From Lepus europaeus (lineage: Eukaryota; Chordata; Mammalia; Lagomorpha; Leporidae), in NCBI RefSeq assembly GCF_033115175.1, contig NC_084838.1, positions 38,047,468-38,111,467 on the forward strand: a stretch of 64,000 nucleotides of DNA, written 5' to 3'. The position numbers and the translations under genes are program-made. How positions within the stretch are numbered: position 1 is the stretch's first letter; each line of letters begins with the position of its first letter. The notes beneath the pieces are model-generated. The model was not told the DNA's origin, made no database searches, and saw only the letters and a list, made by a program, of their open reading frames with translations. Of this stretch, positions 1,317 through 33,844 are shown one piece after another.

Positions 1317-1596
1317 GGGAAAACTGCGGCCACCGTGGAAAACAGCATGGCGGGCAGCTCCTCCAACAGTTACACACAGACATCGTCCAGAACCCAGCAG
1401 TGCCACCCCCGGGTCCCCGCCCAAGCGAACTGAAACCTGAGACCCAGCCAGATGTTTGATCCCCATGTTTATAGCAGCGTTGTTCACAATACGCGGAAGG
1501 TGGGCGCTATCCCAGCGCCCCCTGGTGGACGAAGGGCTAAACGCGACATGGAGTACACATGCAGTGGAGTACTAGTCAGCCCTAAAAAGGAGATTC
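1317..1596 (+). mobile_element. Old L1 (L1M-type) 3' end, left half
   Basis: The order of motifs matches the 3' end of old mammalian L1M elements: a 'gtggaaaacagcatgg' box near 1337, 'ccatgtttatagcagc' near 1463, 'tgttcacaata' near 1480, then 'agtcagccctaaaaagga' near 1573. The match stops where HSP90AB1-like sequence begins and resumes near 6972, so the retrocopy inserted into this L1. The copy is diverged and GC-enriched. The exact subfamily is not assigned. Confidence 0.7.
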
Positions 1597-3124
1597 TCTC
1601 GCAAGTCGGACGCCCGGGGTTCACGGGGCTCCTCAGTGTTTGCAGCCCTTTATCTTCAAGCTGTGTGGAGACGCGCGCCGTGGAGAGAAGGAGCTGCCGC
1701 CTTGCAGGCAGAAACCGCTCAGCTCGTGTCTCCTCAGTACCTCTGTTCCCACAAAGCATCCTTCCTTCGGAAGTTGATCTCGGATGCTTCCGAGGCAGGG
1801 GCCAGGCTTCTCCATGACAGCTTCAAGGGCTCTTCTGATTCGGGCAGTGATTGAGAGCTGGAGAGCGACATCGCCCGCAGCTCCCAGGAACGCACCCTGG
1901 CCTTGGCAGCCTCGGGCACTGCCATGGTCAAGGCCGATCTCATAAACACTTTGGACTCATCGCCTCCTAATGCATTGATGGAGGTTCTTCAAGCCGGAAC
2001 AGACGTCTCCGTGATGGGGGCGATTTGGCATTGGTGTGTATTCTGCCTCCCAGTGGCAGGGAATGTGGTGGTGATCACGGCACACAATGACGATGCACGG
2101 TCTGCCTGGGAGTCTTTTGCCGGCAGCTCCTTCGCTGCTTGTGCCGGCCATGGTGCGCTCGTTTGCCGTGGCAGCAAAGTGGTCTTCCGTCTGAAAGATT
2201 GCCAGGCAGAGTGCTCGGAGGAGAGGTGGGTCCAGGCAGTGACGACAGACACTTGAGGTTCGTAGCCCGTCCTATCACCCTTTTCTGGAGAAGGAATGAG
2301 AGAAGGAAACCAGTGACGATGAGGTGAGAAATAAGAGGAAGACAAAGCTGATGAGCCCCAGGTTGCAGGTGTGGGATCAGACGAAGAGGATGGCAGTGGT
2401 AAGGATAAGAAAAAGAATGCCAAGAAGATTAAGGAGAAAATCATTGATCTGGAAGAACTGAACAAGACCAGAACGTTGGGCCAGGGACGCTGAGGACACC
2501 ACCCAGGAGGAATATGGTGAACCCCACAAGAGCCTCACCGGTGACTGGGGAGGCCACCTGGCAGTCCTGCTCTTCTCTGCACAAGGTCAGTTGGAAGTCA
2601 GGGTATTGTTATCCAGGTCAGTTGGAAGTCAGGGTATTGTTATCCAAGATCAATTGGAAGTCAGGGTATTGTTATCCGGGTCAGTTGGAAGTCAGGGTAT
2701 TGTTATCCGGGTCAGTTGGAAGTCAGGGTATTGTTATCCAAGGTCAGTTGGAAGTCAGGGTATTGTTATCCGGGTCAGTTGGAAGTCAGGGTATTGTTAT
2801 CTGGGTCAGTTGGAAGTCAGGGTATTGTTATCCAAGGTCAGTTGGAAATCTGGGTATTGTTATCCGGGTCAGTTGGAAGTCAGGGTATTGTTATCCAAGG
2901 TCAGTTGGAAGTCAGGGTATTGTTATCCGGGTCAGTTGGAAGTCTGGCTATTGTTATCCGGGTCAGTTGGAAGTCTGGCTATTGTTATCCGGGTCAGTTG
3001 GAAGTCAGGGTATTGTTATCCAGGTCAGTTGGAAATCTGGGTATTGTTATCCAAGGTCAGTTGGAAGTCAGGGTATTGTTATCCAGGTCAGTTGGAAGTC
3101 AGGGTATTGTTATCCGGGTCAGTT

Positions 3125-4400
3125 GGAAGTCAGGGTATTGTTATCCGGGTCAGTTGGAAGTCAGGGTATTGTTATCCAAGGTCAGTTGGAAGTCAGGGTA
3201 TTGTTATCTGGGTCAGTTGGAAGTCAGGGTATTGTTATCCAAGGTCAGTTGGAAGTCAGGGTATTGTTATCCGGGTCAGTTGGAAGTCTGGGTATTGTTA
3301 TCTGGGTCAGTTGGAAGTCAGGGTATTGTTATCCAAGGTCAGTTGGAAATCTGGGTATTGTTATCCAAGGTCAGTTGGAAGTCAGGGTATTGTTATCCAA
3401 GGTCAGTTGGAAGTCAGGGTATTGTTATCCAGGTCAGTTGGAAGTCAGGGTATTGTTATCCGGGTCAGTTGGAAGTCTGGCTATTGTTATCCGGGTCAGT
3501 TGGAAGTCAGGGTATTGTTATCCAGGTCAGTTGGAAGTCAGGGTATTGTTATCCGGGTCAGTTGGAAGTCAGGGTATTGTTATCCAGGTCAGTTGGAAGT
3601 CAGGGTATTGTTATCCAAGGTCAGTTGGAAGTCTGGCTATTGTTATCCAGGTCAGTTGGAAGTCAGGGTATTGTTATCCAGGTCAGTTGGAAATCTGGGT
3701 ATTGTTATCCGGGTCAGTTGGAAGTCAGGGTATTGTTATCTGGGTTTGTTGGAAGTCAGGGTATTGTTATCCAGGTCAGTTGGAAGTCAGGGTATTGTTA
3801 TCCGGGTCAGTTGGAAGTCAGGGTATTGTTATCTGGGTCAGTTGGAAGTCAGGGTATTGTTATCCGGGTCAGTTGGAAGTCTGGGTATTGTTATCCAAGG
3901 TCAGTTGGAAGTCTGGGTATTGTTATCCCGGTCAGTTGGAAGTCAGGGTATTGTAATCCAAGGTCAGTTGGAAGTCAGGGTATTGTTATCCAAGGTCAGT
4001 TGGAAGTCAGGGTATTGTTATCCAAGGTCAGTTGGAAGTCAGGGTATTGTTATCCAAGGTCAGTTGGAAGTCAGGGTATTGTTATCCAAGGTCAATTGGA
4101 AGTCAGGGTATTGTTATCCGGGTCAGTTGGAAGTCAGGGTATTGTTATCCAAGGTCAGTTGGAAGTCAGGGTATTGTTATCCAAGGTCAGTTGGAAGTCT
4201 GGGTATTGTTATCCGGGTCAGTTGGAAGTCAGGGTATTGTTATCCGGGTCAGTTGGAAGTCAGGGTATTGTTATCCGGGTCAGTTGGAAGTCAGGGTATT
4301 GTTATCCGGGTCAGTTGGAAGTCAGGGTATTGTTATCCGGGTCAGTTGGAAGTCAGGGTATTGTTATCTGGGTTTGTTGGAAGTCAGGGTATTGTTATCC
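3125..4400 (+). repeat. Higher-order repeat copy A of the minisatellite (1254-bp period)
   Basis: Rare unit variants recur exactly 1254 bp apart. TGGGTTTGTT lies at 3741 and 4995, and at 4369 and 5623. TTGTAATCC lies at 3951 and 5205. CAATTGG lies at 4093 and 5347. GTCTGGC lies at 3475 and 4729, and at 3631 and 4885. A block of about 40 units was therefore duplicated in tandem. By eye the copies differ at only a few positions. Confidence 0.9.
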
Positions 4401-5654
4401 GGGTCAGTTGGAAGTCAGGGTATTGTTATCCAAGGTCAGTTGGAAGTCAGGGTATTGTTATCTGGGTCAGTTGGAAGTCAGGGTATTGTTATCCAAGGTC
4501 AGTTGGAAGTCAGGGTATTGTTATCCGGGTCAGTTGGAAGTCTGGGTATTGTTATCTGGGTCAGTTGGAAGTCAGGGTATTGTTATCCAAGGTCAGTTGG
4601 AAATCTGGGTATTGTTATCCAAGGTCAGTTGGAAGTCAGGGTATTGTTATCCAAGGTCAGTTGGAAGTCAGGGTATTGTTATCCAGGTCAGTTGGAAGTC
4701 AGGGTATTGTTATCCGGGTCAGTTGGAAGTCTGGCTATTGTTATCCGGGTCAGTTGGAAGTCAGGGTATTGTTATCCAGGTCAGTTGGAAGTCAGGGTAT
4801 TGTTATCCGGGTCAGTTGGAAGTCAGGGTATTGTTATCCGGGTCAGTTGGAAGTCAGGGTATTGTTATCCAAGGTCAGTTGGAAGTCTGGCTATTGTTAT
4901 CCAGGTCAGTTGGAAGTCAGGGTATTGTTATCCAGGTCAGTTGGAAATCTGGGTATTGTTATCCGGGTCAGTTGGAAGTCAGGGTATTGTTATCTGGGTT
5001 TGTTGGAAGTCAGGGTATTGTTATCCAGGTCAGTTGGAAGTCAGGGTATTGTTATCCGGGTCAGTTGGAAGTCAGGGTATTGTTATCTGGGTCAGTTGGA
5101 AGTCAGGGTATTGTTATCCGGGTCAGTTGGAAGTCTGGGTATTGTTATCCAAGGTCAGTTGGAAGTCTGGGTATTGTTATCCGGGTCAGTTGGAAGTCAG
5201 GGTATTGTAATCCAAGGTCAGTTGGAAGTCAGGGTATTGTTATCCAAGGTCAGTTGGAAGTCAGGGTATTGTTATCCAAGGTCAGTTGGAAGTCAGGGTA
5301 TTGTTATCCAAGGTCAGTTGGAAGTCAGGGTATTGTTATCCAAGGTCAATTGGAAGTCAGGGTATTGTTATCCGGGTCAGTTGGAAGTCAGGGTATTGTT
5401 ATCCAAGGTCAGTTGGAAGTCAGGGTATTGTTATCCAAGGTCAGTTGGAAGTCTGGGTATTGTTATCCGGGTCAGTTGGAAGTCAGGGTATTGTTATCCG
5501 GGTCAGTTGGAAGTCAGGGTATTGTTATCCGGGTCAGTTGGAAGTCAGGGTATTGTTATCCGGGTCAGTTGGAAGTCAGGGTATTGTTATCCGGGTCAGT
5601 TGGAAGTCAGGGTATTGTTATCTGGGTTTGTTGGAAGTCAGGGTATTGTTATCC
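4379..5654 (+). repeat. Higher-order repeat copy B of the minisatellite
   Basis: This is the second copy of the 1254-bp block, directly adjoining copy A. The two visible differences are CCAGG in A against CCGGG in B near 3594/4848, and TATCCCGG in A against TATCCGGG in B near 3926/5180. Similarity ends at about 4400 in A and 5654 in B, where the following units differ (CCGGG against CCAAGG). Confidence 0.88.
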
Positions 5655-6971
5655 AAGGTCAGTTGGAAGTCAGGGTATTGTTATCCGGGTCAGTTGGAAG
5701 TCAGGGTATTGTTATCCGGGTCAGTTGGAAGTCAGGGTATTGTTATCCGGGTCAGTTGGAAGTCAGGGTATTGTTATCTGGGTCAGTTGGAAGTCAGGGT
5801 ATTATTATCCATCCCTTGCCAGGCTGCCCTTGATCTCTTTGCAAACCAGAAGAAAAGGGCTAACACCAAACTCCGTGTCCACCGTGTTCGCCATGGACAG
5901 CTGAGATGCAGTGACATCAGAGAATCTCAACTTCACCCACGGTGTGGTTGGCTTTGAGGACTGCCCCTGAACCTCTCCCGAGAAATGCTCCAGCGGAGAG
6001 AAAGTCCTTGGAAACCATTTGCAAAAGCATTGCCAAGAAGTGCCTTGAGTTCTGTGAGCTGGCAGAAGACAAGGAGAACTACAAGGCGCTCTCCGAGAAC
6101 CTCAAGCTTGGTCTCCGTGAGGTCCTCACCAACCCGGGAGCCAGGGCTCCTCTCTGAGCTGCTGCACTGTCACCTCCCCGTGTGCAGCCAAGGTGACTCC
6201 GCGGCAGAGCTTGCCTATGCAGGGGGGAGACGCAGGGGTCCGTCCCCTGTGTCACTGGTGAGGCAGACAGCAGGGGCCGCTCTGCTTTCGTGCTGTGAGT
6301 GCGGACGCCGAGCTTCGCGGTAGGGCACAGGACCCAGCCTGGTGCAAAGCACTGCGTGCTGCAGCTCAGGGCGTCTGCTGGGGAGAGCCTGGAACTGCCT
6401 GAGGAGCAAGGTGAAGTTTGGGAACCTCTGCAAACTCCTGGAAGAAGCCTTGGATAAGGAGGCCGAGAGAGCAGCAGCCTTCCAGTCTCCACCCGCTGCC
6501 TCGCAGTGGCCAGCTCCCGCGGAGCTGTGGGGCTCCGCCAGCACGGAGTGGACCACAAAGGCCCAGGCCCTGAAGGCAGCTCTGCCTGGGCTTGAGGCTG
6601 GCAGAGAGCACCTGGAGTCGAGCCCTCACCACCTTTGTGGAGAAGCCGCGGCAGGAGCCTGACGCATTCCAGCCACATGGGTCACGTGGTCCCGCAGGAC
6701 CTAGGCCCTGATGGGGACAAAGTGGCAGCAGAGGGACCTGGTGCTGCTGGTCCTGATGGGGGCGCCCCTCTAGAGGGCGAGGAGGATGCGTCTCGCATGG
6801 AAGCAGTAGACTTGGGGTACGACTTAGTCACGTTCTGAACAGCGTCCCCTGGCCCCCACGGCCCCCTGACCCCCCGGCCCCCATGGCCCCCACGGCAGCT
6901 TGGCTCCCTCTGCTAATGTCCAGAGGCCTTTTTCTCTCTACAGCAGGGAACAAGGACCTCAACTGGAGAAC

Positions 6972-7260
6972 GGAAGGAGATGCTGGTACCTGCTGCCCAC
7001 GGACGAACCTTTATAACACACTCAATAGAATGAGTCTCGCACAAGAGGTTCCCTGCTGTATGAGTCCGCGCATGGCAGGTACCTAGAGCAGGTGGACGCA
7101 GACACAGGCAGTAGAACGGGGGTGACCAGGAGCTGGGGGAGAGCAGATTAGGGGGGTCAGTGTTCAATGGCTATAGAGTGGGTGCATGAGACGGTGAAAA
7201 AGTCCTGGAAATAGAGAAAGATGACAATGTACAACTTATGGCTACAGAGCTATGAACCTA
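6972..7260 (+). mobile_element. Old L1 (L1M-type) 3' end, right half
   Basis: Motifs continue the L1 interrupted at 1596. A degraded 'acggacgaacctt' stretch near 7001 and 'gcacaagagg' near 7039 are followed by 'ggtacctagagcag' near 7078, 'ggcagtagaac' near 7107, 'gaccaggagctggggga' near 7123, and 'acaatgtacaactt' near 7225. An 'aaggagat' string flanks both sides of the retrocopy (about 1588 and 6975) and may be the remains of the target-site duplication. Confidence 0.65.
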
Positions 7261-33398: not shown

Positions 33399-33844
33399 TG
33401 TTGCAGTTGATTTCTCCACAATGTTGCAGTGGGTTCATTTCTGAGAGGAGCAGCGTGGTGGGGGCAAGAGGCGCGGAGTCAACACACAGACTCCGGGAGT
33501 CGGGTGAAAGCAGGCTTGAGGCGAGCAGCCCGCAGACTCGTTTATTACAGTTGGTACAACAGCTTATATAGCCAAGACCAGCCAATCTGGTCAAGGGGCG
33601 GTCTATACCCCAACCAATCACAGCCTGTCGCCAGGCAGTTTCCAGAGCCATCCAATCACAGCCTGTCGCCAGGCAGTTTCAAATCCATCCAATCACAGCC
33701 TGTCGCCAGGCAGTTTCCAAAGCCATCCAATCACAGCCTGTTGCCAGGCAGTTTCCAAAGCCAGGTGGGTTTCAAAGCCATTCCTGACTAACTGACGCTC
33801 GCTTGCCAGTGGCCACCTTCGCATGGCCTTCTCATTCCACTACA
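33399..33844 (-). mobile_element. Solo LTR, class II (ERV2/ERVK-type) endogenous retrovirus
   Basis: The 446-bp element begins TG and ends CA. It is flanked by a perfect 6-bp target duplication, GAGATC (33393-33398 and 33845-33850), the length typical of class II retroviruses. On the minus strand it has a TATATAAGC box (complement of 33561-33570) and AATAAA (complement of 33541-33546), so the LTR reads leftward. Upstream of its TATA box, in the U3 position, are four direct repeats with CCAAT boxes. No gag, pol or env sequence is present. It is most likely the product of recombination between two LTRs. Confidence 0.88.
33614..33765 (-). repeat. Four 37-38 bp direct repeats with CCAAT boxes in the LTR U3
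   Basis: CCAATCACAGCCTG starts at 33614, 33652, 33689 and 33727, each followed by T(C/T)GCCAGGCAGTTT. Another CCAAT occurs at about 33578. Each unit offers an NF-Y-type site upstream of the LTR TATA box, an enhancer-like layout (function inferred). Confidence 0.93.

Follow-up and report, generated by a model that had tools for sequence, protein, structure and literature searches.

How does a minisatellite of about a hundred units come to lie inside a dead copy of a protein-coding gene, and can the single-copy sequence from which it grew still be read? This question is raised by a 64,000-nucleotide stretch of the Lepus europaeus genome (assembly GCF_033115175.1, contig NC_084838.1, positions 38,047,468 to 38,111,467 of the forward strand), which was analysed as a whole and is called the window below, with all positions counted from its first base. 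On its + strand, the coding sequence (CDS) of an HSP90AB1 retrocopy is interrupted after CDS base 972 by a minisatellite array (2585..5810), whose 103 units (31-32 bp) stem from CDS bases 973-1002 (codons GQLEFRALLF), and resumes directly behind it. We consider it very probable (roughly 0.93) that an old HSP90AB1 retrocopy drifted towards G+C, that a 31-32 bp stretch of it was later duplicated head to tail, and that the resulting array grew and was finally enlarged by the duplication of a 40-unit block.

The array lies in a processed pseudogene whose parent is HSP90AB1 and not AA1. Two references were used for the comparison, namely a human HSP90AB1 CDS, whose translation matches the solved HSP90-beta chain at 724 of 724 residues, and the parent gene reconstructed from the window's own genome, where it was found on contig C3 with 10 CDS introns bounded by GT-AG ends and 717 of 724 residues the same as in human. 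The 5′ part of the pseudogene (1670..2584, + strand) covers CDS base 10 to 972, the 3′ part (5811..6810, + strand) runs from the I-P codons to CDS base 2171, and the CDS end with a remnant of the HSP90AB1 3′ untranslated region (UTR) occupies 6811..6962 (+ strand), the mRNA alignment reaching position 2321, 146 bases beyond the stop. Joined via the last array unit, the flanks align to human CDS 10-2171 with 1463 of 1924 ungapped positions identical, and the copy aligns to positions 10-2321 of the own-genome parent mRNA with 1538 of 2056 identical. Because the human CDS alignment score (1621) exceeded that of 60 synonymous codon-shuffled CDSs (820 ± 45, maximum 920), the match is to HSP90AB1 DNA and not to the protein alone. 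The human 3′ UTR scored 54.4 on the 3′ end of the copy (maximum 33 in 300 shuffles). The choice of parent was clear from the alignment scores (1497 to AB1 vs 814 to AA1), and the left-flank translation scored higher against HSP90-beta (41.8 bits) than against full-length HSP90-alpha chains (30.5 bits) among solved structures, where a 43-residue translation of the right flank found no match. The array aside, the copy has four insertions longer than 3 bp (5, 5, 4 and 8 bp), and since the largest is 8 bp it holds no intron. Its reading frame is disabled by frame-shifting gaps and by stops within matched pieces, decay relative to human is similar across the three codon positions (0.214, 0.256 and 0.249), as expected without constraint, and divergence amounts to 21.0% (343/1636) at sites where human and the own-genome parent agree. 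The ends of the copy are a weak point of this reading: the candidate target-site duplications, AAGGAGATTCT on the left (1587..1597, + strand) and AAGGAGATGCT on the right (6974..6984, + strand), form a weak 11-bp pair with one mismatch (10/11) that 28 of 400 random pairs equalled, the human 5′ UTR gave no match (score 18 vs a shuffled maximum of 27.8), and no poly-A tail was seen by eye in 6940-6985. The insertion-site flanks had no further copies in the window or genome, only the locus itself being found, and a reading of these flanks as old L1 sequence finds no support in the searches made.

The relation of the unit to its surroundings supports growth of the array in place from a single-copy HSP90AB1 segment, as read from the alignments. 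With one unit kept, the region spanning the array aligned to CDS 908-1070 without gaps and with 124 of 163 bases identical, divided into 50/65 on the left, 24/30 in the last unit (5781..5810, + strand, which runs on into the 3′ part of the pseudogene; compared with the human CDS) and 50/68 on the right. The consensus unit matched CDS 973-1002 at 25 of 30 bases, compared with 17 at the next-best CDS place and at most 19 for 300 shuffled units, and matched the own-genome parent at 23 of 30. Where human and the present parent differ within the unit, it sides with human at unit positions 7, 21 and 27 and with the parent at position 30; the right flank CATCCCT agrees with the own-genome parent and not with the human CDS. 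A genome-wide exact search with a 19-base unit core returned 76 matches, all 76 of them in the array, and none for the reversed control. Growth in place is supported by collinear flanks, by a unit that agrees with the codons at the very point of interruption, by an exact core absent elsewhere in the genome and by the lack of the parent's introns, one of which ends 15 bases ahead of the position equivalent to the array unit. The first-pass annotation had proposed just this, namely that about 100 units grew in place from a single copy of the HSP90-beta codons and that only a 31-bp segment was amplified, and both the codon assignment and the alignment of the remaining copy, with its four short insertions, bear it out. 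It had placed the array at 2585..5811, of which the start is correct and the end lies one base too far, and it had read the flanks as contiguous in HSP90AB1, as they are, with the small correction that the right side resumes with the I-P codons (ATC CCT) before R-R. Against growth in place, it must be said that the one-unit ancestor is reconstructed from one species, not seen, and that the founding end points have been blurred by subsequent mutation.

Tandem Repeats Finder, which the same annotation had suggested as a check, called one array at 2585-5810 with a period of 31, 103 copies and 93% match. Cut at TTGGAA, the array yields 103 units of 19 types, of which 68 are 31 bp and 34 are 32 bp long, the final one being counted as 30 bp; their endings are TCCG (41), TCCAA (34), TCCA (14), TCTG (12), TCCC (1) and, in the last, TCC (1). 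We infer that the 32-bp form is ancestral because its TCCAA ending carries on the AAGG found in the pseudogene just ahead of the first unit, for which the parent has GAAGG. With head-to-tail units of 31-32 bp at a single locus by the exact core, the array is a minisatellite. Subtelomeric positions are a common, not a required, setting for minisatellites; this locus lies 38.05 Mb into a 105.67-Mb contig of a 2.93-Gb genome and is not subtelomeric, a position that weakens a subtelomeric origin.

The array has no evident function. Two forward frames are open across it (1,075 and 1,074 codons), and neither has an ATG until the array is over. The third is broken by two stops, and its first piece (2448-3956, stop to stop, 502 codons) does contain an ATG, which lies at residue 23 and within the flanking pseudogene. 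Judged from these translations, a coding role of the array seems unsupported. A 312-residue translation of the array had no similar protein at E 0.001 among 7993 candidates scored, Rfam at gathering thresholds gave no matches in the whole window, and the 30-base unit had no matches in viral contigs or in prokaryote genomes, as expected for a mammal. We also observed that the open frames on the + strand of 2448-5904 could lead an automatic gene finder to a spurious repeat protein.

The array appears much younger than the retrocopy and founded from an already mutated segment, which is the simplest reading of the substitutions. The mean difference between two units, taken over the first 30 bases, is 3.4%, compared with the 21.0% divergence of the copy, and the founder changes are common to all units. 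Human and parent share the same letter at 26 of the 30 positions of the unit, and at four of these (13, 20, 25 and 29) the unit has another letter, a small sample. The changes at 20, 25 and 29 occur in every one of the 103 units, the first and the last among them, and position 13 is G in 97 units and A in 6, with the parental T in none. These figures could also be explained if the array were as old as the retrocopy and had been homogenised ever since, in which case low internal divergence would give no date. Concerted evolution can indeed hold units alike, and a single array with 4 of 26 informative sites leaves room for it. The terminal units, which are expected to exchange least, nevertheless bear the same founder changes at human-parent-agreed sites, and we regard an array coeval with the retrocopy as a minority possibility, at about one chance in four.

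The retrocopy itself, judged from its letters, may have been inserted early in the parent's lineage. At 220 sites where human and the own-genome parent differ, it agrees with human at 104, with the parent at 88 and with neither at 28, while other AB1 copies in the genome favour the parent (human vs parent matches of 51 vs 86 in L041, 12 vs 29 in L050 and 24 vs 29 in L047), which suggests early insertion, with the reservation that GC drift disturbs such counts. On these figures the copy might be of sufficient age to occur in pika as well.

About 40 of the 103 units came from one late block duplication, whether real or made in assembly. The first copy of a 1,254-bp block of 40 units lies at 3122..4375 (+ strand) and the second at 4376..5629 (+ strand), with near-identity extending to 5654, so that 3122-4400 equals 4376-5654 except for 2 mismatches in 1279 bp (lag 1,254 bp). 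Comparing unit types, units 40 apart were identical in 40 of 63 comparisons, and the other lags reported (1-89) gave at most 0.30; the score of the 40-unit lag was 108.9, whereas 100 shuffles never exceeded 17.9, and no other lag scored above 9.2, which is within the null. Separately, a base-level scan showed partial likenesses at other lags (the best 784 bp, at 4607-5019) under loose scoring and with no null, which are not claimed as events. The number of units and the block are both known from a single assembly, to which a haplotype-stitching error could have contributed, and this counts against taking the present size at face value: if the block were an artefact joining two haplotypes, the true array would hold about 63 units. 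The difference between the blocks (2 of 1279 positions) is of a level that two haplotypes could show. Block duplications are, on the other side, usual in minisatellites, and an inflated array length is in our view improbable, again at around one chance in four.

How the first duplication arose is less clear-cut. In the one-unit reconstruction, with offsets 30-33 scanned, the only match at the unit edges was CA (2 bp, offset 32); a 4-bp AGTC (offset 33) is found 22 bases upstream, where it does not mark the ends of the unit, and the human CDS, scanned for runs of at least 3, had none at the unit edges. According to the review PMC6947457, Haber and Louis found that direct repeats of 5-10 bp on either side of the founder unit served as the founding device, and such repeats are absent here, the longest edge match being the 2-bp CA, so that short-repeat slippage is not visible. 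Slippage between repeats that have since decayed is conceivable given flanks as old and changed as these; it is made unlikely, more so than the two alternatives above, by the edge match of just CA, by an AGTC that delimits nothing, by a human CDS without edge runs and by strand folds no better than shuffles (124 array bases, z of -0.28 and 0.10 for the two strands). Of the insertions into unique DNA at meiotic hotspots in human, 63% were modelled as side-by-side duplications, with microhomology of mainly 1-10 bp, and non-homologous end joining is said to use 0-3 bp as a rule (PMC7615360); a 2-bp edge match does not choose between side-by-side duplication with microhomology and end joining. The weakest alternative, that a pre-existing minisatellite entered the pseudogene from elsewhere and resembles HSP90 codons by coincidence, had nothing in its favour and was rejected as scarcely credible, because the unit matches exactly the interrupted codons (25/30), CDS 908-1070 neither loses nor gains a base with one unit kept, and the 19-base core, searched as an exact core only, occurs nowhere else in the genome.

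The pseudogene has drifted towards G+C, and the cause of the drift bears on how the array was born. Counting only sites where human and the own-genome parent agree, AT-to-GC changes (203/792, 0.256) exceeded GC-to-AT changes (87/845, 0.103) by a ratio of 2.49 (P = 4e-16), the kind of excess expected of a GC-biased gene conversion tract. By codon position, the counts were 75/269 vs 31/332 at position 1 and 111/426 vs 23/191 at position 2, where the parent hardly changes, with a weaker excess at position 3 (17/97 vs 33/322). Under the stricter human-CDS alignment, position 2 showed an excess for both flanks together (P = 0.001) and none for the right flank alone (38/142 vs 9/57, P = 0.14). As controls, we fetched 12 of about 23 other HSP90-like loci, grouped by us from at least 78 matching rows with 62 of 100 candidates scored, the 11 left out being single-piece matches of at most 178 residues; compared with the closer parent, the 12 had ratios of 0.13 to 1.08, and 10 of the 12 were significantly below 1 (P < 0.05). 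The CpG count was not lowered relative to the human CDS, which has 43, while each of the two parts of the copy has 41. GC content was 0.57-0.59 in the bins around the pseudogene, 0.46-0.48 in the array bins and 0.45-0.49 in the left 10 kb.

Several points nevertheless limit what the controls say about the singularity of this drift. A clear reversal is seen in just one of the three clean AB1 copies, L041 (0.32), the others, L050 (0.91) and L047 (1.08), being neutral, and the other, inverted piece of L047 (mRNA 1646-2439) itself has an AT-to-GC excess (ratio 2.06, P = 0.006). Six controls (L042, L043, L044, L045, L048 and L051) are closer to AA1, a parent that is not polarisable, and three (L046, L049 and L052) are distant or uncertain, L052 possibly being a gene. 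The AB1 control loci lie in flanks of 0.33-0.46 GC, compared with 0.47 and 0.51 at the array locus, and the local GC peak is not unique because seven bins 16-30 kb to the left reach 0.53-0.60. The drift could be due to GC-biased gene conversion; it could equally be explained by CpG hypomethylation or by a mutation pattern of the region. A tentative extension, which we hold to be possible and still improbable, is that the retrocopy sat in a long-lived meiotic recombination hotspot, where GC-biased conversion would have driven the drift and error-prone break repair would have founded and enlarged the array; if true, one locus would record both a conversion history and the birth of a minisatellite, with the parent gene as outgroup.

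Collectively, these observations are consistent with the following sequence of events. An HSP90AB1 mRNA was reverse-transcribed and inserted long ago, as the lack of introns and the 3′ UTR remnant show, and the dead copy then decayed with a strong drift to G+C, a drift directly visible in the counts, with its cause being presumptive. Later, an already mutated 31-32 bp stretch would have been duplicated head to tail, possibly where the DNA had broken or a fork had stalled, through template switching or the joining of ends, which the 2-bp CA fits. Unequal exchange or gene conversion may subsequently have enlarged and partly homogenised the array, to judge from variants shared among units, and its present size would be due to one duplication of a 1,254-bp block of 40 units, seen in one assembly.

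Some further features were observed in passing. Elsewhere in the window, a small second array (33610-33763) comprises about 4 copies of a 38-bp unit with 94% match, positions 1-1200 contain AT-rich motifs that by eye resemble conserved non-coding sequence, and five pieces of the lagomorph C short interspersed element (SINE) were found at 28, 9, 15, 11 and 9 places with at most 3 mismatches, counts for which no null was drawn. Among the other HSP90AB1 retrocopies, L047 (G000:C39:21276000-21278200) consists of two pieces in opposite orientation, as might result from a twin-primed insertion, and L041 (G000:C3:92738000-92740500) is interrupted in the charged-linker region at about 1020-1330 on the - strand by sequence that we presume, from its likeness, to be a lagomorph C SINE.

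Within the genome, L041, L047 and L050 are decayed processed copies that are closest to the AB1 parent, as is L046 narrowly (622 vs 601); no array was seen in these other AB1 copies, although the segment is only incompletely covered by L041, L047 and L050. The segment has single-copy length (44-46 bases) in L042, L043 and L046, the sole 3 of the 12 fetched copies that cover it, all AA1-like or distant. Beyond this genome, the first-pass annotation had held that the birth of a large array can seldom be traced to a known single-copy ancestor, which is overstated. The 33-bp variable number tandem repeat (VNTR) of the TRIB3 promoter, single-copy in apes and other mammals according to PMC7425993, resembles the present array in that a unit of about 32 bp expanded from single-copy sequence, and differs in having 1-5 copies in the promoter of a living gene, compared with about 100 copies in a dead retrocopy here. 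Minisatellites from Alu, B1, MaLR and other elements are listed in the review PMC6947457, and those in Alu, B1, MaLR (Ms6-hm) and soybean Gmr9/ogre likewise arose from an internal piece of a retrotransposed sequence with a known ancestor, whereas the present array descends from a processed pseudogene of a protein-coding gene, and that parent gene lies in the same genome. That review has no word starting with 'pseudogene' and names retropseudogenes only in a figure legend, as a class of dispersed repeats, and titles and abstract openings in the open-access literature, among the matches listed, included no minisatellite traced to a processed pseudogene. The 33-bp minisatellite near FOXF1 at 16q24.1 (PMC4411736, in the part available) is, like the present one, a kilobase-scale array flanked by an old retroelement; length instability is a feature of the 16q24.1 array, and no single-copy ancestor is named for it there. 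Arrays from known single-copy ancestors are thus already known, and this one is a well-recorded further case, with GC drift as a testable twist. For many arrays the ancestor has been lost. Here a single assembly contains the parent gene, both halves of the dead copy and the full set of units, so that the founder sequence, its end points, the relative age and the growth steps can be read together, and the unusual AT-to-GC drift of the host offers one locus at which to test whether minisatellites are born through recombination, as has been proposed.

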